Source: Lentimicrobium sp. (GTDB lineage Bacteria > Bacteroidota > Bacteroidia > Bacteroidales > Lentimicrobiaceae). From it: a DNA stretch of 64,000 bases. The translations under genes and the position numbers were made by a program. The stretch is taken from assembly GCA_024709105.1 (NCBI GenBank), contig JANJXJ010000016.1:21682-85681 (forward strand), written 5' to 3'. Position 1 is the first letter of the stretch; every line of letters begins with the position of its first letter. This document shows, piece after piece, positions 27,964 through 35,162 of the stretch. The notes under the pieces were generated by a model. That model saw nothing but the letters and a program-made list of their open reading frames with translations, was not told the origin of the DNA and made no database searches.

Positions 27964-28848
27964 ATGCCCAGTTTAAAAGAGGTAAGAACCCGAATCACTT
28001 CAGTAAAGTCAACGCAGCAGATTACCAGCGCTATGAAAATGGTGGCTGCATCAAAGTTGCGTAAAGCGCAGACCAGCATTCTGCAGCTGAGACCTTTTGC
28101 TGCACAGCAAAAGCTATTGCTTCAGCAACTTACTGCAGGGCTTGGGGATAAAACTCCAAATGTTTATGGCCGCGAACCCGAATCTGGTAAAGTATTATAT
28201 GTGGTATTTTCTTCAAACAGGGGTTTGTGCGGAGCATACAACACCAATGTTATCAAACAAATGAATGCTTTATTGGCCCGGCACAGGATTGATAACAACA
28301 TTCAGCATGTTTCACTGATGACCATCGGGAAAAAAGTGAGCGAATTTTTTGCCCGTCAGCAGGTAAACATTGTTTCTTCGCACGATGAGCTATACGATCA
28401 GATGAGCTATGCAAAGGCAGTTGCAGTTGCCGAAGACCTCATGAAAAAGTTTGTTTCAGGAGAGTATGACCGTATACTTTTTGTTTATCACCAGTTCAAA
28501 AATGCTGTGGTTCAGAAGCTTCAGGTGGAACAATTTCTGCCGGTTGAAAGCCCTGAAAACGAAAACGGAGGAGCTCATCATGAAGTAGAGTATATTTTTG
28601 ATCCTTCACGGACAGAAATTCTCGAAGATTTGGTTCCACAGATTCTTAAAACACAGTTTTACAAGGCTTTGCTCGACTCATGGGCATCAGAACTGGGAGC
28701 CAGAATGACTGCCATGTCGCAGGCTACCGATAATGCTTCGGAATTGCTTAAAGAACTCAGGCTTACCTACAACAAAGCAAGGCAAGCGGCCATTACCAAG
28801 GAGATTCTTGAAATTGTCGGAGGTGCCGAAGCATTGAAAAATTCGTGA
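27964..28848 (+). CDS. atpG: ATP synthase F1 subunit gamma
   Basis: Central-shaft subunit of 294 residues. The N-terminal coiled-coil helix LKEVRTRITSVKSTQQITSAMKMVAASKLRKAQ and the C-terminal helix SELLKELRLTYNKARQAAITKEILEIVGGAEAL are diagnostic. Last atp gene here: the beta (atpD) and epsilon (atpC) genes that complete F1 are not adjacent and must lie elsewhere. Confidence 0.97.
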   Translation: MPSLKEVRTRITSVKSTQQITSAMKMVAASKLRKAQTSILQLRPFAAQQKLLLQQLTAGLGDKTPNVYGREPESGKVLYVVFSSNRGLCGAYNTNVIKQMNALLARHRIDNNIQHVSLMTIGKKVSEFFARQQVNIVSSHDELYDQMSYAKAVAVAEDLMKKFVSGEYDRILFVYHQFKNAVVQKLQVEQFLPVESPENENGGAHHEVEYIFDPSRTEILEDLVPQILKTQFYKALLDSWASELGARMTAMSQATDNASELLKELRLTYNKARQAAITKEILEIVGGAEALKNS

Positions 28849-28903
28849 CAAGATTGTTTAATTCAGTAAATTCATTAACTGATAACCCAAAAACCTAAGA
28901 GTT

Positions 28904-29422
28904 ATGATTTCGAAAAAAGTTGAAGAAGCAATTAATGTTCAGATTAAGAACGAGGAGCATTCATCGCGCATCTATATGGCTATGGCTTCGTGGTGCGAAA
29001 CCAATGGATACCGTGGTGCTGCTGATTTCCTTTACAAGCAGAGCGACGAAGAGCGTATGCATATGCTCAAGTTTATCAAATACCTGAATGATCGTGGTGG
29101 ATACGCTGTACTGGCCGGACTTGAACTTCCTGCTTCTGAGTACAAATCGCTGCGCGATGTTTTTGATCATGTACTCAGCCACGAGGAATTTATTACTGCG
29201 TCAATCAATCAGTTGTACGAAGTATCCCTCAACGAAAAAGATTATACCACCGGTAATTTCCTGCAGTGGTATATCAACGAGCAAATCGAAGAAGAAAGCA
29301 CTGTTAACGGCATCCTCGACCGTATGAAGCTACTGGGCGATGACAAAGCCGGTATGTTCCATATAGACAAGGAACTTGAAACCATGGCAGCCGCCAAAGT
29401 GATAGACCCGCTAACTGAATAG
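28904..29422 (+). CDS. ftnA: Non-haem ferritin
   Basis: Iron-storage protein of 172 residues forming a 24-subunit shell. Ferroxidase-centre residues are visible: Glu17 (in KNEEHSS), Tyr24, the Glu and His of SDEERMHM in helix B, the Glu of LSHEEF, and Gln/Glu in NEQIEEE. Bacterial ferritin (FtnA) type rather than bacterioferritin, since no haem-binding Met is evident. It follows atpG by 55 bases and has its own terminator. No iron-responsive operator was recognised. Confidence 0.96.
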   Translation: MISKKVEEAINVQIKNEEHSSRIYMAMASWCETNGYRGAADFLYKQSDEERMHMLKFIKYLNDRGGYAVLAGLELPASEYKSLRDVFDHVLSHEEFITASINQLYEVSLNEKDYTTGNFLQWYINEQIEEESTVNGILDRMKLLGDDKAGMFHIDKELETMAAAKVIDPLTE

Positions 29423-29471
29423 GGATTTTAGCTATCGGTTGTCGCAGTTGACAATATCCAACTCAAAATAA

Positions 29472-29504
29472 GCGGTTCATCGGGTTACTGATGAGCCGCA
29501 TTTT
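29472..29504 (+). terminator. Rho-independent terminator of ferritin
   Basis: GCGGTTCATC (29472-29481) pairs with GATGAGCCGC (29490-29499) with one wobble and an 8-nt loop, then ATTTT. It lies between the convergent ferritin and nucleotidyltransferase genes. Confidence 0.8.
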
Positions 29505-29512
29505 GTATAACT

Positions 29513-30208
29513 TCACGAGTCAATATCTGCAATACTTTGGAATAAGGCAAAGATGAAGTCAGTTGCTGAATCTCCTGAACCATATGGCAATGCACTTTCG
29601 ATACCTTCAGTAATGTTTGGATTTTCCAAAAGTTTCTGGCATTCTGCTTTTAAATACAATTTAACTTTTGGCTTTGAGCCATTTATATTTTTCAAAATGT
29701 TTGTACAGTTATCCAAAAGATAAATAATATCTTCAAAATCATGACTTTGGCGCAAATCATTTCCCCCTCTGCCATTGTGGGCTTCGAATTTGGCAGCCAG
29801 GTAATATTCAGAAGGAAACACAAATATCCGGGTTCCATCTGGGAGTATTTTTGATATCCTATGTTCAAACCCGCTTTCGTACCATCTATTACTGAACCCA
29901 AGTACATCTGATTCTGTTGGCATAATATCTACTTTGATGCCATTGTATATCCATCTGCAAATTGGAGCACCAATCGAAGTGTCATTTTTAAATCCTTTAA
30001 ATCTCAGATTATTCTCAAGTCTGAAGAAATGTAGTTTAGAACTTATCTCAATGACACAATCAATATCAAGAGTTGTTCTTATTTCTGAAACCGCCGGATT
30101 ATCTGCGTATAGTTCAGCAACAGCGCCACCTACAAACACCATCTCATCTTTTAGTTCTCCCAACCCATTTGCAACGGATTGGAGCATAAGCATATTGGTA
30201 CTAGGCAT
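29513..30208 (-). CDS. Nucleotidyltransferase-like protein, possible toxin of a type IV-like TA pair
   Basis: A 231-residue protein with a polymerase-beta-like nucleotidyltransferase core: MVFVGGAVAELYADN (Gly-Gly active-site loop), then RTTLDIDCVIEI with Asp48-x-Asp50 as the likely metal pair, and GIKVDIMP as a third acidic strand. A helical C-terminal part follows (HDFEDIIYLLDNC). The general pattern resembles AbiEii/COG4849-type proteins. Its start overlaps the 3' end of the upstream winged-helix gene by 8 bases, so the two are translationally coupled. AT-rich compared with the atp genes next to it, suggesting transfer. It could instead be a housekeeping or tRNA-modifying enzyme; toxicity is inferred only from layout and fold. 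Confidence 0.72.
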   Translation of the reverse strand: MPSTNMLMLQSVANGLGELKDEMVFVGGAVAELYADNPAVSEIRTTLDIDCVIEISSKLHFFRLENNLRFKGFKNDTSIGAPICRWIYNGIKVDIMPTESDVLGFSNRWYESGFEHRISKILPDGTRIFVFPSEYYLAAKFEAHNGRGGNDLRQSHDFEDIIYLLDNCTNILKNINGSKPKVKLYLKAECQKLLENPNITEGIESALPYGSGDSATDFIFALFQSIADIDS

Positions 30209-30722
30209 TCTTCAAGCGTTTGGTTAATTCTTCAATGGCAATTTTTATCTCTCTGGCCCGGCCAACCCTAAGAGTATCGACTATGGACAAAAGTTCATAG
30301 AACATTTTATCTTCTTTTGCAAGAACAGGCAGGGTTTTATATAATGGCTCAATGGCCTGACCTCTTTGGGATCCCTTCGAATTCGGCCATACATAAACAT
30401 CAGTATCAGATAATATTTGTTCCTTTATCGGTGATGCAGAATGAGCTGTGGGAATTCCTTTGACCATTGATCCAGGTTCAGCAGGGAAAACATATTTTAA
30501 TCCGTAAATTAAAAACTCAGTGAAAGAGCTGATATTTACTTTTCTTTTTTTACTGTCAATCAGTTTTGCTATCCTACATCTGTTCAAAGCTTCAGAAACT
30601 TCAGATTGACTTATTCCAACACCATTGGCAAGATCAATATTTCTCCATTTATCATCTGCAAATGATATTATTTTTAAAAGAACAGCAATATCCTGAGGGC
30701 GCATCCCATTATGTTTCTTCAT
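30201..30722 (-). CDS. Winged-helix DNA-binding protein, possible antitoxin/autoregulator
   Basis: A 173-residue protein with an N-terminal winged helix-turn-helix (about residues 5-65: RPQDIAVLLKII, then WRNIDLANGVGISQSEVSEALNRCRIAKLI), MarR-like in appearance. The C-terminal half is unrecognised. An in-frame ATG at 30758 exists, but the predicted -7 box (30763-30756, minus) places transcription start after it, so the ATG at 30722 is used. A perfect palindrome lies 14-32 bases before that ATG. The stop overlaps the nucleotidyltransferase start by 8 bases. The arrangement matches regulator-antitoxin first, toxin second, as in AbiEi/AbiEii, but family membership is not proven. Confidence 0.75.
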   Translation of the reverse strand: MKKHNGMRPQDIAVLLKIISFADDKWRNIDLANGVGISQSEVSEALNRCRIAKLIDSKKRKVNISSFTEFLIYGLKYVFPAEPGSMVKGIPTAHSASPIKEQILSDTDVYVWPNSKGSQRGQAIEPLYKTLPVLAKEDKMFYELLSIVDTLRVGRAREIKIAIEELTKRLKNA

Positions 30723-30735
30723 AATTTTTCTTATT

Positions 30736-30754
30736 AATTCGCGATTCGCGAATT
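30736..30754. promoter_or_regulatory. Perfect palindrome, candidate operator of the winged-helix/nucleotidyltransferase pair
   Basis: AATTCGCG-ATT-CGCGAATT, 8-bp arms and 3-bp centre, lies across the predicted transcription start and 14-32 bases before the ATG. CGCG islands are rare in this AT-rich stretch, so chance is unlikely. The winged-helix protein encoded next to it is the obvious candidate ligand. Confidence 0.75.
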
Positions 30755-30755
30755 G

Positions 30756-30763
30756 CAAATATA
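30756..30763 (-). promoter_or_regulatory. Candidate -7 promoter box of the winged-helix/nucleotidyltransferase pair
   Basis: Minus strand TATATTTG, an exact TAnnTTTG match, directly adjoining the palindrome. A possible -33 TTG lies at 30781-30779 with a short 15-base spacer. Confidence 0.55.
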
Positions 30764-30795
30764 TCTATAATAATAACACAAAATATATTTCTTTA

Positions 30796-30896
30796 CACTA
30801 TTGTCCGGAAAAACATATTAACGCTCAAAGAGATTACCTTCCACCTCCGCCAGCGGCGGTGGAAGGTAATCTCTTACTTTTTCCCGGACAACAGTG
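30796..30896. repeat. Imperfect palindromic element of about 100 bp, MITE-like
   Basis: Terminal inverted repeats CACT-A-TTGTCCGG (30796-30808) and CCGGACAA-C-AGTG (30884-30896), each followed inward by an A-run or T-run. Inside is a perfect 17-bp stem, 30829-30845 with 30858-30874, closed by a further CCGC/GCGG stem (30847-30850 with 30853-30856) and a 2-nt loop. The GC-rich centre contrasts with AT-rich flanks. No ORF. It may be a non-autonomous transposable element or the ends of a decayed insertion; a bidirectional terminator or structured RNA is the alternative. No second copy was seen in the window, and no clear target duplication. Confidence 0.65.
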
Positions 30897-31014
30897 AAAC
30901 ATAATATTTAAAGAAGTATAATAATTCCTTGCCGATAAAAGACTGAGAATTATAAAGGCAGCCCTCTTTTCCCTGAAATGCGTGTGCAACCAGAATCAGT
31001 AAAATTGGACTAAA

Positions 31015-31581
31015 TCAATGCCGGCCTTCAATCTTCTCAACCAATTCGCGGTACCATTTTTCCCCGTATTTCCTTACGAGGGAATCTTTAAGGAAAACAT
31101 ATAAAGGAACGTTCAGCTTTTTGCCGAATTCTAGTGCAGGCTGGCAAATGTGCCACTGATGGTAGTTAACGGCATCAAAATCGTTGTATTTACTGATTCT
31201 TACCGGATATAAGTGACAGGAAACCGGTTTTCTGAATGAAGATTTTCCTGCTTCCCAGGCTTTTTCCATGGCGCAGGCAGCAATTCCGTCGTCGGTAAAT
31301 ATAACAAATGCACATTCAGCCCCATTGATGAGCGGAGTAACATAATGTCCGTAGGCATCGTAGTCAAAAACTCCCATTTCTTCAACGGCATCAACACCTT
31401 CGGTGCGCATAAAGGGCTTGATGTAGATCAGGTTGTCTTCAATTTCGGATATTTCATCTTCATCAAGAGGCGCTCCGGCATCACCTTCCACACAGCAGGC
31501 ACCTTTACAGGCCTGAAGATTGCAAACAAAGCAGACTTTGTACAGGTCGTCAGAATTCAGAGTATCGTCAATGGCTATCAT
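31015..31581 (-). CDS. DUF3109 family Cys-rich protein
   Basis: A 188-residue protein of the DUF3109 family, frequent in Bacteroidota. A dense Cys cluster near the N-terminus (CFVCNLQACKGACCVEGD) and later Cys residues in CAFVIF, CAMEKAW, CHLYPVRI and ICQPAL suggest metal or Fe-S binding, similar to YkgJ/UPF0153 proteins; the function is unknown. The ATG at 31581 gives the conserved start MIAIDDTL; the frame is open to 31860, with another ATG at 31647, but that part has no similarity and overlaps the divergent promoter. Confidence 0.88.
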   Translation of the reverse strand: MIAIDDTLNSDDLYKVCFVCNLQACKGACCVEGDAGAPLDEDEISEIEDNLIYIKPFMRTEGVDAVEEMGVFDYDAYGHYVTPLINGAECAFVIFTDDGIAACAMEKAWEAGKSSFRKPVSCHLYPVRISKYNDFDAVNYHQWHICQPALEFGKKLNVPLYVFLKDSLVRKYGEKWYRELVEKIEGRH

Positions 31582-31585
31582 GCGG

Positions 31586-31593
31586 CAAAGATA
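31586..31593 (-). promoter_or_regulatory. Candidate -7 promoter box for the DUF3109 gene
   Basis: Minus strand TATCTTTG ends only 4 bases before the ATG at 31581, so if it is real the message is leaderless or nearly so. Confidence 0.35.
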
Positions 31594-31662
31594 TACATAT
31601 TGATCAGAAACCGGATTGATTGTTTTAAGTACCTGTTTGATTTTCATATTGGTGCATTGTAT

Positions 31663-31693
31663 TTGCTTTTTAATAATTTTTAAAGTAGGTTTG
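31663..31693 (+). promoter_or_regulatory. Promoter of the START-domain protein gene
   Basis: TTG (31663-31665), exactly 20 bases, then TAGGTTTG (31686-31693), a full consensus match. It lies 18 bases before the ATG at 31712 and so excludes the longer frame from 31616. Confidence 0.6.
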
Positions 31694-31711
31694 CGCCTCA
31701 AATTCAAACTG

Positions 31712-32377
31712 ATGGGAATTTTTAAGGGACATTTTATTCTCATTCTTGTAGTGGCCATGTTTAATTCAAAGCATGGAAGTATTAATAATATCGAAATCAG
31801 TGAAGTATCAAATAATCCCTCTTCCCGATGGGAGCTTACTGATGAAGAAGAGGGAATCAAATTTTATGTGAGGTGGGTGCCCATTTCTGATGAGCAAAAA
31901 GTCAGAGAACGAAAAGTAGAAATTCTGGCGCATACATCGCTGGATAATGCTTTGAAGATGGTCACCGATATGGAAAAAGTCAGGCTTTGGATGTCGGGGA
32001 TAAAAAAGGCCTCTTTATTGCATCGCGACAGCAAAAACCAATGGTACTCATATGCCTTGTATGGCTTGCCCTGGCCTTTTAACGACCGTGAAATGATTAC
32101 CCTGTGTAAAATGAAACAGGAAGCCGCTCAGCCCCGCATTTCAATAAACATGGAGAGTATTGATCAATCCTATCCTCCTGCAAAGGGTGTTGAAAGGCTC
32201 ACCAATTACAAGGCAAGCTGGGAGTTGATTGAGATTAACAAAACTCTCGTAAAAATGACTTTTATTGCCCGTTCGGGCGACCCTCCGGCTTTTCCAAGGG
32301 TTATTCAGGACCCGGTAATTAAAAAAGTATTTATGGGGAACATGCGCGCCCTGAAAAGTCTGCTGGAAAAATCCTGA
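31712..32377 (+). CDS. START-domain (SRPBCC superfamily) lipid-binding-like protein, secreted
   Basis: A 221-residue protein with a short N-terminal hydrophobic segment (MGIFKGHFILILVVAMF) that serves as a signal or anchor, followed by a START-type helix-grip domain: WELTDEEEGIKFYVRW, a central WPFNDREMIT motif (typical of START proteins, where it reads WP.. .RD), and a long C-terminal helix (VIKKVFMGNMRALKSLLE). START domains bind lipids or other hydrophobic molecules. The start is set by the promoter just upstream. It converges on recJ, with 37 bases between stops. Confidence 0.85.
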   Translation: MGIFKGHFILILVVAMFNSKHGSINNIEISEVSNNPSSRWELTDEEEGIKFYVRWVPISDEQKVRERKVEILAHTSLDNALKMVTDMEKVRLWMSGIKKASLLHRDSKNQWYSYALYGLPWPFNDREMITLCKMKQEAAQPRISINMESIDQSYPPAKGVERLTNYKASWELIEINKTLVKMTFIARSGDPPAFPRVIQDPVIKKVFMGNMRALKSLLEKS

Positions 32378-32414
32378 ATTCCCGCATTTAATTGCAAGAA
32401 CATGTAATTTTAGC

Positions 32415-34205
32415 TTATACTTCCTCTCCCGGAAGTTTTATGTCTTTGATATTGAGTTGTATGGATTTCTGGTTATTCCATTCATTTTCTTCTATGTGGT
32501 AGCAGATATTAAATGGTTTTCCCTGATTGATATGGTTAAAATGTTCGCCTTGCTGAAATGCAATGGCAGGAAAAGGCGCTGACGCAATTTCGTGATGGCC
32601 TATGGTAAGTTTCAGGTGGTTCTTACCTACAATTCTTCCGTATCCGTTATCAATCACTCCATCGGTTCTGAACACCGGCGACATGTTTCCGGGTCCAAAA
32701 GGAGCAAACTGTTTTAAAACCTTATAAAACCTGGGTCCGATTTCATTAAGATTGATTTTCAGGTCAATTTCAACCTCCGGAGAGAGCATATCTTCAGTAA
32801 GACCTCTTTTTACCACCGTTTCGAACTTTTCGATAAAAGCTTCGAGGTTTTCGGGCTTTAGCGATAAACCAGCAGCATACTTATGGCCGCCAAAATGCTC
32901 AAGCAGTTCGCTGCATTCATCAATGGCATCGTAAATGTCAAAGTCTTTGATTGACCTGGCAGAGCCTGTCACCAAACCATTGGATTGAGTGAGAACAATG
33001 GTTGGCCGGTAATATGCCTCAATAAGCCGGGAGGCTACAATGCCAATTACACCTTTATGCCATTCCGGATGATAAACTACTGTGGAGCAGGCTTTCATGA
33101 GCCGAGGGTTGGTCTTGATAGCATCCAGCGCCATATCGGTGGTGGTTGCATCAAGATCGCGGCGGGTGGTATTAAAATCGTTGATCTGCTTTGCAATTTC
33201 TTCAGCTTCGTCGGGTATTTCGCTTACAAGCAGGCGAACCGAATTGCGGCCACTTTCAATTCTTCCTGCGGCGTTGATGCGGGGCCCAACCAGAAAAACC
33301 ATATCAGAAATGGTCAGTTCCCTGTTAAAAACACATGGCGGATCTTCATTGCCGTTAGGCGCTGTTATCGCCGGCACATCCTCAGTCTTTCTTATTATAT
33401 TTGAATACTTAAGAATAGACTCAAATCCCGGCCGGGGATTTTGATTGATCAGCCTCAGGCCATAATAAGCCAGAATTCTGTTTTCTCCGGTAATGGGAAC
33501 TATGTCAGATGCAATACTAACAACAACCAGATCGAGGTATTTATGCAGATTTTCAAAAGGGAGGTTCTTACGTGATGAAAGTGCCTGAATAAGTTTAAAA
33601 CCTACACCGCATCCCGAAAGTTCCTTAAAAGGATAGTTGCAGTCGGGTCTTTTGGCGTCAAGAACTGCTACAGCATCGGGTAGCATTTCATCGGGGCGGT
33701 GGTGATCGCAGATAATGAAATCAACACCGTATTCATTGGCTTTTTTAACTTTTTCGATGGCTTTGATCCCACAATCCAGGGCAATTACCAGCGCAAAGTC
33801 ATTTTCGTGAGCAAAATCAACTCCTTTGAATGACACTCCATATCCTTCTGAGTAACGGTCGGGAATGTAATAATCGAGCTGAGCATGGCCCAGTTCTCTT
33901 AAAAAAGTGTAAACCAGAGATACTGCAGTAGTACCATCAACATCGTAATCGCCGTAAACAAGGATTTTTTCATTTTTCTCCAGGGCTGCAAGTACGCGAT
34001 CAACGGCCTTGTCCATATCTTTCATTAAGAAGGGATCATGCAGATCTTCAAGCGATGGCCTGAAAAACTGCTTAGCCTCTTCAAATGTATTAATTCCCCG
34101 CTGTACCAGCAGTTCGGCCAGCACGGGACCAATGCCCAGCTCAGCCGACAAGCCGGCAACCTTTTCGGGATTGCCCCTCTCTTTCAACACCCAACGTTTC
34201 TGCAT
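32415..34205 (-). CDS. recJ: Single-stranded-DNA-specific exonuclease RecJ
   Basis: 5'-3' ssDNA exonuclease used in recombination and mismatch repair. DHH-family motifs are intact: VYGDYDVDGTTA (Asp86-Asp90 region), ALDCG, and ICDHHRP with DHH at residues 167-169; the DHHA1 part has VGPRINAAGRI and GSARS...FGGHKYAAG. The C-terminal OB domain completes the protein. Length 596 aa is normal. It lies 117 bases downstream of the FRG gene on the same strand. Confidence 0.97.
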   Translation of the reverse strand: MQKRWVLKERGNPEKVAGLSAELGIGPVLAELLVQRGINTFEEAKQFFRPSLEDLHDPFLMKDMDKAVDRVLAALEKNEKILVYGDYDVDGTTAVSLVYTFLRELGHAQLDYYIPDRYSEGYGVSFKGVDFAHENDFALVIALDCGIKAIEKVKKANEYGVDFIICDHHRPDEMLPDAVAVLDAKRPDCNYPFKELSGCGVGFKLIQALSSRKNLPFENLHKYLDLVVVSIASDIVPITGENRILAYYGLRLINQNPRPGFESILKYSNIIRKTEDVPAITAPNGNEDPPCVFNRELTISDMVFLVGPRINAAGRIESGRNSVRLLVSEIPDEAEEIAKQINDFNTTRRDLDATTTDMALDAIKTNPRLMKACSTVVYHPEWHKGVIGIVASRLIEAYYRPTIVLTQSNGLVTGSARSIKDFDIYDAIDECSELLEHFGGHKYAAGLSLKPENLEAFIEKFETVVKRGLTEDMLSPEVEIDLKINLNEIGPRFYKVLKQFAPFGPGNMSPVFRTDGVIDNGYGRIVGKNHLKLTIGHHEIASAPFPAIAFQQGEHFNHINQGKPFNICYHIEENEWNNQKSIQLNIKDIKLPGEEV

Positions 34206-34322
34206 CCTTGCTTTTTTTCGATTTGTAAAAATAGGGATAATGCAGCTAAGTTGGAAAGAAAATTTACGCTGAAAATTTAAAAATGAATTTCAAAGCTGCT
34301 ATTTCGCTGTTTTACTGATTGT

Positions 34323-35162
34323 TTATTCTATGCCATTAACATTATCCTGATGACTGTCATCATGGGCATAAGGCAGTGATTTTGGGCTGTACTGCCTTTT
34401 GAGCCAGCTGCTTAAGCCATCAAGACCCGGAAAAAGCACCCTTTCGGTGATGTTTGCCTGGTCAAGTTTATCGCGGATTTCCCATTTTAATTCTTTGGGG
34501 ATAATGATGCGATAAAAAAGTTCCGGATGGTCTTCAAGCCAATGGTTCATCAACAACCTTGCATTCGACATCAAAGAAAACAAAGCATGTTGATTGACAA
34601 TTCTTTCGTCCATGGAAGGGGGCTCCAGAAAAATTACAAATCGCCTTTCATGCAAGGTTTCAAGCTGTTTTAAACTATTACATACGGTATCGAGCATGGT
34701 GGGAGTGAAAACATTGGCTCCTTCTTCCTTGATGGTATTAAATAAGGGAGTTGGCAGAAATTCATTGGCTTTCACATAATTTACGCACCAGATAGCGCCA
34801 TCGGTATTAAACCTCATCAGGTTGGCTGTGGCAAAATGCAAAGCTATGTAAGGAGAATAAGTCCAGTCGAGCAGTCGGGTGGGCAAGCCATGGTGCTGAG
34901 CAATGGCCATAAGGTTCCACACCGATTCGCCTGAAACTGTATTCCGGTGTGCGTATTTTCTGAAATTTCTCAGCAGATGCCTTTCCAGGTCGCTGTAAGG
35001 GCCTTCCAGTCGCATCAGGCTGGTTTTTAGCTCATAACCTGCATCAGATAAACCCCTGAAAACGTGCGCAGACCTGAATCGTCCCAAACTGGCATCGTAA
35101 GAATCACGAAAAAGTTCTTCCTGCAACTCAGCCCAGCTTTTTACAATAACATCGTTTTTCAT
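34323..35162 (-). CDS. FRG domain-containing protein
   Basis: A 279-residue protein whose N-terminal half is an FRG domain: HVFRGLSDAGYELKTSLMRLEG (with the name-giving FRG), ERHLLRNFRKYA, and LMAIAQHHGLPTRLLDWTYSP. The domain name comes from the F-R-G motif, the catalytic role is unknown, and FRG proteins occur both in mobile or defence contexts and in ordinary chromosomes. No signal peptide. It lies 48 bases downstream of the permease gene on the same strand. No defence partner is recognised next to it. Confidence 0.9.
   Translation of the reverse strand: MKNDVIVKSWAELQEELFRDSYDASLGRFRSAHVFRGLSDAGYELKTSLMRLEGPYSDLERHLLRNFRKYAHRNTVSGESVWNLMAIAQHHGLPTRLLDWTYSPYIALHFATANLMRFNTDGAIWCVNYVKANEFLPTPLFNTIKEEGANVFTPTMLDTVCNSLKQLETLHERRFVIFLEPPSMDERIVNQHALFSLMSNARLLMNHWLEDHPELFYRIIIPKELKWEIRDKLDQANITERVLFPGLDGLSSWLKRQYSPKSLPYAHDDSHQDNVNGIE

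Follow-up and report, generated by a model that had tools for sequence, protein, structure and literature searches.

The locus and the question it raises

The window analysed here, a 64,000-nucleotide stretch of a Lentimicrobium sp. contig (JANJXJ010000016.1), carries two overlapping minus-strand genes, A and B, which raise the question of whether they form an autoregulated toxin–antitoxin module and, if so, how such a module would be switched off and on. Gene A (30201–30722, minus) encodes 173 residues from its ATG (an alternative upstream TTG start would take the ORF to 30758), and judging by its sequence its product is a MarR-like winged-helix protein, likely both autorepressor and antitoxin; gene B (29513–30208, minus) encodes 231 residues, predicted to form a nucleotidyltransferase of the AbiEii/MenT kind and likely the toxin. 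A first-pass annotation had described the genes as overlapping by 8 bases, and the two ORFs do share 30201–30208, where the stop of A lies over the start of B, likely coupling their translation; overlaps of 8 or 11 nt recur in many related loci. The AT-richness it had noted was also found, with 36.8% GC in 30001–31000 against 40.6–42.4% in the remaining kilobases of 28001–33000. The pair is flanked by a plus-strand gene (28904–29422) that we take from its sequence to be ferritin-like and by a DUF3109 gene (31015–31860, minus).

Searches of Pfam and NCBIfam matched A and B to no family above its cutoff; the PADLOC models PDC-M21A and PDC-M21B matched A (5.2e-48) and B (3.3e-54), respectively, and the pair is already known as the PADLOC candidate defence system PDC-M21. 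The first-pass annotation missed this status, as it did the third gene, a phosphatase, that accompanies the pair in relatives. We consider it likely that the pair behaves as a toxin–antitoxin system, and favour, with modest confidence, the reading that it is an autoregulated MenT/AbiEii-type module, which relatives possess in a fuller form with a phosphatase that may reactivate B.

Gene B resembles AbiEii and MenT nucleotidyltransferases

The GG...DxD core that had been claimed for B held up, as did the proposed conservation of its DxD residues: in an alignment of 64 B proteins D48, D50 and D94 were invariant and G27 and G28 nearly so, and the catalytic residues were also invariant in a second set of 23 proteins, 18 of them new. 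All four AbiEii/DUF1814 motifs as defined in the consulted part of PMC3985639 (I–IV: GG, R..DxD, K..R and DxxD) are represented in B, their residues being G27, G28, R44, D48, D50, K140, R147, D157 and D160, with His (H156) instead of Lys/Arg before the DxxD. The Pfam AbiEii family was matched at E ≤ 0.1 by 51 of the 64 family members (best 4.4e-10), the window's own B not being among the matches at that threshold. The statement that neither protein bears an AbiE signature therefore fails for B.

In the structure-based comparison that had been suggested as a check, B is predicted to fold like MenT1, the solved folds nearest to the model being MenT1, MenT3 and MenT4. A PDB search with the B family profile returned a nucleotidyltransferase-like protein and MenT1 (E 0.003–0.007); the sequence of the window's B by itself drew nothing above chance level from the PDB (best 0.065). 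B further has an Arg four residues ahead of the DxD (R44) and a Ser/Thr two residues ahead of it (T46), which is the spacing of the MenT phosphosite. Since Ser/Thr at the place of T46 is general to the DUF1814 family, the conservation of T46 is no special sign.

Gene A resembles MarR regulators

That A has a winged helix of MarR-like character, as first proposed, is supported by sub-cutoff Pfam matches and a middling fold match over residues 7–81 (the fold comparison covered residues 4–81, the C-terminal domain being residues 82–173). The AbiEi family was absent from the Pfam matches of the window's A at E ≤ 1 and from the 25 shown of the 35 Pfam families matched by 67 A relatives, and hhalign of A against one annotated AbiEi, a weak test with a single AbiEi, gave a probability of 0.1–0.2%. 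Its sequence points to a MarR-like regulator without an AbiE signature. Two other identities were considered and rejected: an ordinary AbiE system, with which the B side is compatible and the A side is not (Pfam, hhalign), and an MNT–HEPN pair, as A has no HEPN match in Pfam and looks winged-helix.

A conserved inverted repeat at the promoter of A

The palindrome AATTCGCGAATCGCGAATT (30736–30754; 19 nt, with 9-nt arms and one central base) is a putative and likely operator for A. It begins two positions past TATATTTG (30756–30763, minus), which we take, by the Bacteroidetes consensus, to be the -7 box of a Bacteroidetes-type promoter. The palindrome noted at first pass is real and beyond chance: the 70-nt upstream sequences of 77 loci plus the window gave 78 distinct regions, and 65 of them contained an inverted repeat whose arms reach 7 nt or more, whereas 100 dinucleotide shuffles yielded 9.2 such regions on average and never more than 15. 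The exact core TTCGCGAWTCGCGAA, present in 40 of the 78, is the Bacteroidales form of the repeat; ATATTGCATATCGCAATAT is used in several flavobacterial loci, and by eye a GTCC/GGAC form lies near the A start on rhizobial plasmids. Box and exact core were both present in 39 upstream regions among the relatives, the core starting 11 nt downstream of the box start in 28, 19 nt in ten and 24 nt in one. Across the window's 4.47-Mb assembly the core occurs without mismatch at a single site and with up to two mismatches at six, versus three for a backwards control, so that a regulon is unlikely and a role of A as a global regulator was rejected. The conserved repeat at the promoter and the single exact core in the genome together indicate that A most likely controls its own promoter through the predicted operator.

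A and B are linked and B is preferentially lost

Co-occurrence of the two genes, another check proposed at first pass, was examined in loci found with B, of which the best 80 of 147 relatives were kept. A adjoined B in 77 of these 80; in two of the exceptions the match starts near a contig end (L046, L049), and the third is a B remnant without A (L072). With one locus on a viral contig (L162) there were 78 loci having both genes, and the frame of A was open over 168–188 residues in every one. B was shortened by a stop or frameshift in seven (L012, L026, L053, L066, L070, L071 and L073); it ends at the contig edge in L045 and is open, without an ATG, in L069. Were gene length alone to govern, the probability of all seven breaks falling in B would be ~0.02, for a count that may include assembly errors and shared ancestry.

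In 395 genomes of the phylum we found A in 20 and B in 19. Ten of the B matches were strong (>100 bits), all ten beside A, and nine were weak only (<30 bits), which we take for other nucleotidyltransferases. Inspection by eye of the ten A genomes without a strong B match showed nine with no B after A and one at a contig edge (L126). The nine are not independent, since five share one genus (L131, L132, L133, L134 and L138). In that genus the solitary A looks settled, because three of the four genomes with the common genus neighbourhood share a downstream gene on the opposite strand. As A persists alone in nine genomes, five of them of one genus, it may serve some independent purpose. Among 60 relatives including the window's genome, A was present in eight and B in six: in G021 an intact A precedes a B of which only the beginning remains, running into a metallophosphoesterase frame, B is broken in G030, and G043 has A with no B seen. 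A and B are linked, and not SYMMETRICALLY; B is lost or broken beside an intact A, and the reverse was not observed.

Several further loci have neighbours of note. In L124 an A without B adjoins a zeta-toxin-like kinase gene (Pfam Zeta_toxin, 2.3e-6, above cutoff), with a small unknown gene nearby and a relaxase-like gene preceding; in L137 an AbiEii gene lies downstream of a solitary A; and in Phaeobacter (L206:501-1331) an annotated AbiEi antitoxin stands beside the family member. Genome G012 has, separate from its intact pair, an extra B remnant (L117:3062-3166) beside hsdS-like and AAA genes. Of the control genomes, Corynebacterium glutamicum matched the A and B models and Methanocaldococcus jannaschii the A model only.

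Phosphatases of unrelated families accompany the pair

Clustering of the neighbours in 81 Bacteroidota-centred loci (the 80 and L162) revealed one dominant family, a PPP-type metallophosphatase of ~220 residues present in 28, the next clusters comprising 7 loci. Its gene is on A's strand and upstream of A in all 28, and in 22 it lies 53–58 nt from the A start. The motifs GDxHG, GDYxDRG, GNHE, HAG and HGH, which we take to be the metal-site motifs of PPP-type enzymes, were kept in 18 of 18 aligned proteins. The nearest solved relatives were the metallophosphoesterase 4j6o (8.6e-13), presumably a polynucleotide kinase-phosphatase fragment, the lambda-type Ser/Thr phosphatase 1g5b (8.5e-11) and ApaH-type Ap4A hydrolases; the relatives thus include Ap4A and nucleic-acid phosphatases. 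A different metallophosphoesterase lies near A or B in five loci (L029, L042, L051, L075 and L113). In a single case, Saccharicrinis aurantiacus (L029:4779-6008), no stop separates the upstream phosphatase frame from A, and the two form one frame of 409 residues that spans the operator.

On plasmids the third gene is of another family. Within a non-random set of 20 plasmid loci (six from a best-match list, 13 from a spread list and one exception check; the spread list had 24 rows, 16 records being examined and six of the other eight being in the PP2C list), a PP2C gene lies directly downstream of B in 14, all 14 matching PDC-M21C, and that of L204 looks frameshifted. One further locus has a metallophosphoesterase (L198), two have PP2C remnants (L210, L220), and three, from Hymenobacter, Calothrix and Deinococcus, have no phosphatase. 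Starting from PP2C instead, a B match lies within 170 nt of 57 of the 60 PP2C matches listed (from 81 records in total), and the remaining three have no B among the rows compared. Ten of 60 B rows have no PP2C among the matches listed; eight of the ten are from Bradyrhizobium, of which the two loci examined hold PP2C remnants. The commonest linked third gene is therefore a phosphatase, from unrelated families, the PP2C and PPP counts being of non-independent events: PP2C after B in Pseudomonadota, where the evidence is from plasmids, and PPP before A in Bacteroidota kin. The PPP family is widespread in its own right, at 1e-20 reaching 202 of the genomes in the 395-genome sample, and none of the ten A–B genomes of this even sample has a PPP match on A's contig; PPP linkage is therefore a trait of the window's nearer kin.

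The window's own pair has no such gene. A tblastn search of window positions 29401–34400 with seven PP2C relatives found none beside the pair, and a search of the same interval for phosphatase remnants gave chance-level matches only (E 0.6–0.9). In a quick maximum-likelihood tree without bootstrap of 70 A+B rows (26 with PPP, three with another metallophosphoesterase, 37 with none and four unjudgeable), the window pairs with L003, apparently the copy of G012, inside a starred set of ten rows, of which the other eight comprise six with PPP, one with none and one ending too early. Because it nests among phosphatase-bearing kin, the window's pair has probably lost its phosphatase gene. The tree requires at least ten changes of phosphatase state, and on it the three rows with another metallophosphoesterase lie apart. 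Elsewhere, the window's genome (G000:C26) encodes a PPP phosphatase that is more distant (~36% identity).

Relation to known systems

PDC-M21 consists of a wHTH protein (A), a nucleotidyltransferase (B) and a PP2C (C), and the window's genes match its A and B models in the same order; the window's pair differs in having no PP2C, and its Bacteroidota kin in having the unrelated PPP phosphatase before A in place of PP2C after B. PADLOC candidates of this type are described as unvalidated in PMC12988326, the consulted part of which does not name M21. The window's pair may also correspond to the COG4861–COG4849 pairing pointed out in 2014 (PMC3985639, in part), in which a regulator gene likewise precedes a nucleotidyltransferase gene; motif III of the B family (consensus KLEAFxGR) fits the COG4849 motif KLxAaxxR given there, and the sections consulted mention no phosphatase. 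AbiE, as described in the sources consulted in part, likewise has a winged-helix regulator before a DUF1814-type nucleotidyltransferase and inverted repeats at its promoter; however, the abiE repeats are of 11 bp and 27 bp apart whereas the window's palindrome is short and compact, and no AbiEi model matches the window's A. To the MenAT systems (MenT1, MenT3/TglT with TakA, and MenT4) B is tied by its predicted fold and its Arg/Thr spacing, but the window's A is MarR-like whereas MenA1 is a small protein without a winged helix (PMC11375011, in part). The consulted MenAT texts mention no phosphatase gene beside menAT, the authors having looked to the housekeeping PstP.

The literature searched, which excluded preprints and supplements, yielded nothing on PDC-M21 and no account of a phosphatase gene being linked to a toxin of this kind. 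New relative to that literature are the Bacteroidota form with PPP for PP2C, the operator family, the asymmetry between A and B, and the link to the missing MenT phosphatase. The DUF1814 nucleotidyltransferase toxins are widespread, and phosphorylation silences some of them; the means of their reactivation is left open in the consulted part of PMC7205606. Operons with a phosphatase of their own, its family varying by phylum, make this question of reactivation testable with two purified proteins and give PDC-M21 a concrete mechanism to test; our results also suggest that its Bacteroidota form is overlooked if PP2C alone is sought.

A possible phospho-switch

According to the consulted part of PMC7205606, TakA phosphorylates TglT/MenT3 at S78, near the invariant R76, and thereby blocks toxicity; the phosphorylation is not reversed by degradation of TakA, reactivation is left to a "currently unidentified phosphatase", and PstP caused a slight change only in a short assay. 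Elsewhere MenT3 is described as dephosphorylated in vitro by PstP (PMC11541572, in part), and MenT1 as undergoing antitoxin-induced autophosphorylation at T39, ahead of D41xD43 (PMC11375011, in part). Read against these papers, the spacing of R44 and T46 in B suggests that the full module may comprise a toxin, an antitoxin that is also the autorepressor, and a reset phosphatase. A would repress the shared promoter at the palindrome, and B would act as MenT toxins do, adding nucleotides to the ends of tRNAs, or would add them to a different RNA. A would neutralise B by promoting phosphorylation of Thr46, two residues ahead of the DxD, a step modelled on Thr39 of MenT1 and Ser78 of MenT3/TglT and to which, by this analogy, we give slightly less than an even chance. 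The linked PP2C or PPP would then remove the phosphate when the toxin is needed, e.g., during phage infection, and for the window's copy a host enzyme, for instance the distant PPP phosphatase on contig C26, would have to take this part; this resetting of B by the phosphatase is a tentative proposal. Equally speculative is the whole three-part switch, in which a MarR-like antitoxin drives Thr46 phosphorylation and a dedicated phosphatase, independently recruited as PP2C, PPP or other metallophosphoesterases, reverses it and would be the kind of reset enzyme that the MenT/TglT account lacks.

The pair could instead be a toxin–antitoxin or abortive-infection module without phosphorylation, A repressing transcription or binding B and the phosphatases acting on what B produces or requires, be it nucleotides or RNA ends (Ap4A, 2',3'-phosphates). 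Such a module would agree with the PPP enzymes resembling ApaH and polynucleotide kinase-phosphatase models no less closely than protein phosphatases, with the window and other loci having no phosphatase, and with AbiE being described as a non-interacting type IV system without phosphorylation (PMC3985639, in part). The PP2C class is known for phosphoprotein substrates, and the third gene of Pseudomonadota being a PP2C argues against such a module, as does the MenT-toxin phosphosite spacing of B. We regard this alternative as rather unlikely. For the autoregulated toxin–antitoxin module that we prefer, the first-pass interpretation was sound as to the linked pair, the MarR-like A, the AbiE/MenT-like B and the operator-like repeat, and went astray in denying B its AbiEii signature.

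Neighbourhood and mobility

The presence of the pair is patchy. Among the 19 genomes of the genus it lies beside the ferritin gene in the window's genome and G012 only (in G012, DUF3109 was not found within the 12 kb examined); the other 17 have the ferritin and DUF3109 neighbours with no A or B, the distance between the match ends being ~60–200 nt in 15 and ~790 nt in two (L100 and L101, of G005 and G013). Since these two junctions are long without A or B, the junction takes up other inserts. Relatives of B occur on 116 plasmid records; searches of named phage records with the window's B and an Agrobacterium plasmid B gave no match, and the one viral contig (L162) carries A–B and a phosphatase, the phage nature of its other genes being judged by eye, with Pfam empty for three.

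The stop of B and the start of an hsdS-like gene overlap in five loci (L002, L006, L011, L020 and L023), where genes for an AAA ATPase and an HNH-like protein come next; four of the five also have an hsdM-like gene. The family matches of the representatives fall short of the NCBIfam cutoffs, and the HNH-like gene was named by eye. This arrangement, the plasmid and viral-contig carriage and the PADLOC listing as a candidate defence system would suit a defence cassette in which A is an infection-sensing repressor only, also steering downstream restriction genes, and B an effector rather than an addiction toxin. However, most of the 80 loci lack adjoining restriction genes (7 of 81 fall in the hsdS-like cluster), and a repressor-only A does not by itself explain the intact A beside broken B; we consider such a cassette rather unlikely as well. 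A harmless housekeeping regulator with an RNA-modifying enzyme and no toxin function, which A persisting alone in several genomes of one genus would fit, is improbable given the patchy presence (2 of 19 in the genus), the plasmid and viral carriage, the broken B copies, and the MenT fold predicted for B and its motifs.

Just upstream of the promoter of A, at window positions 30785–30905, lies a short inverted repeat, imperfect and with CACTRTTGTCCGGRAAAAA-like ends. Its 19 matches in the window's genome, several of them partial, suggest a MITE-like element.
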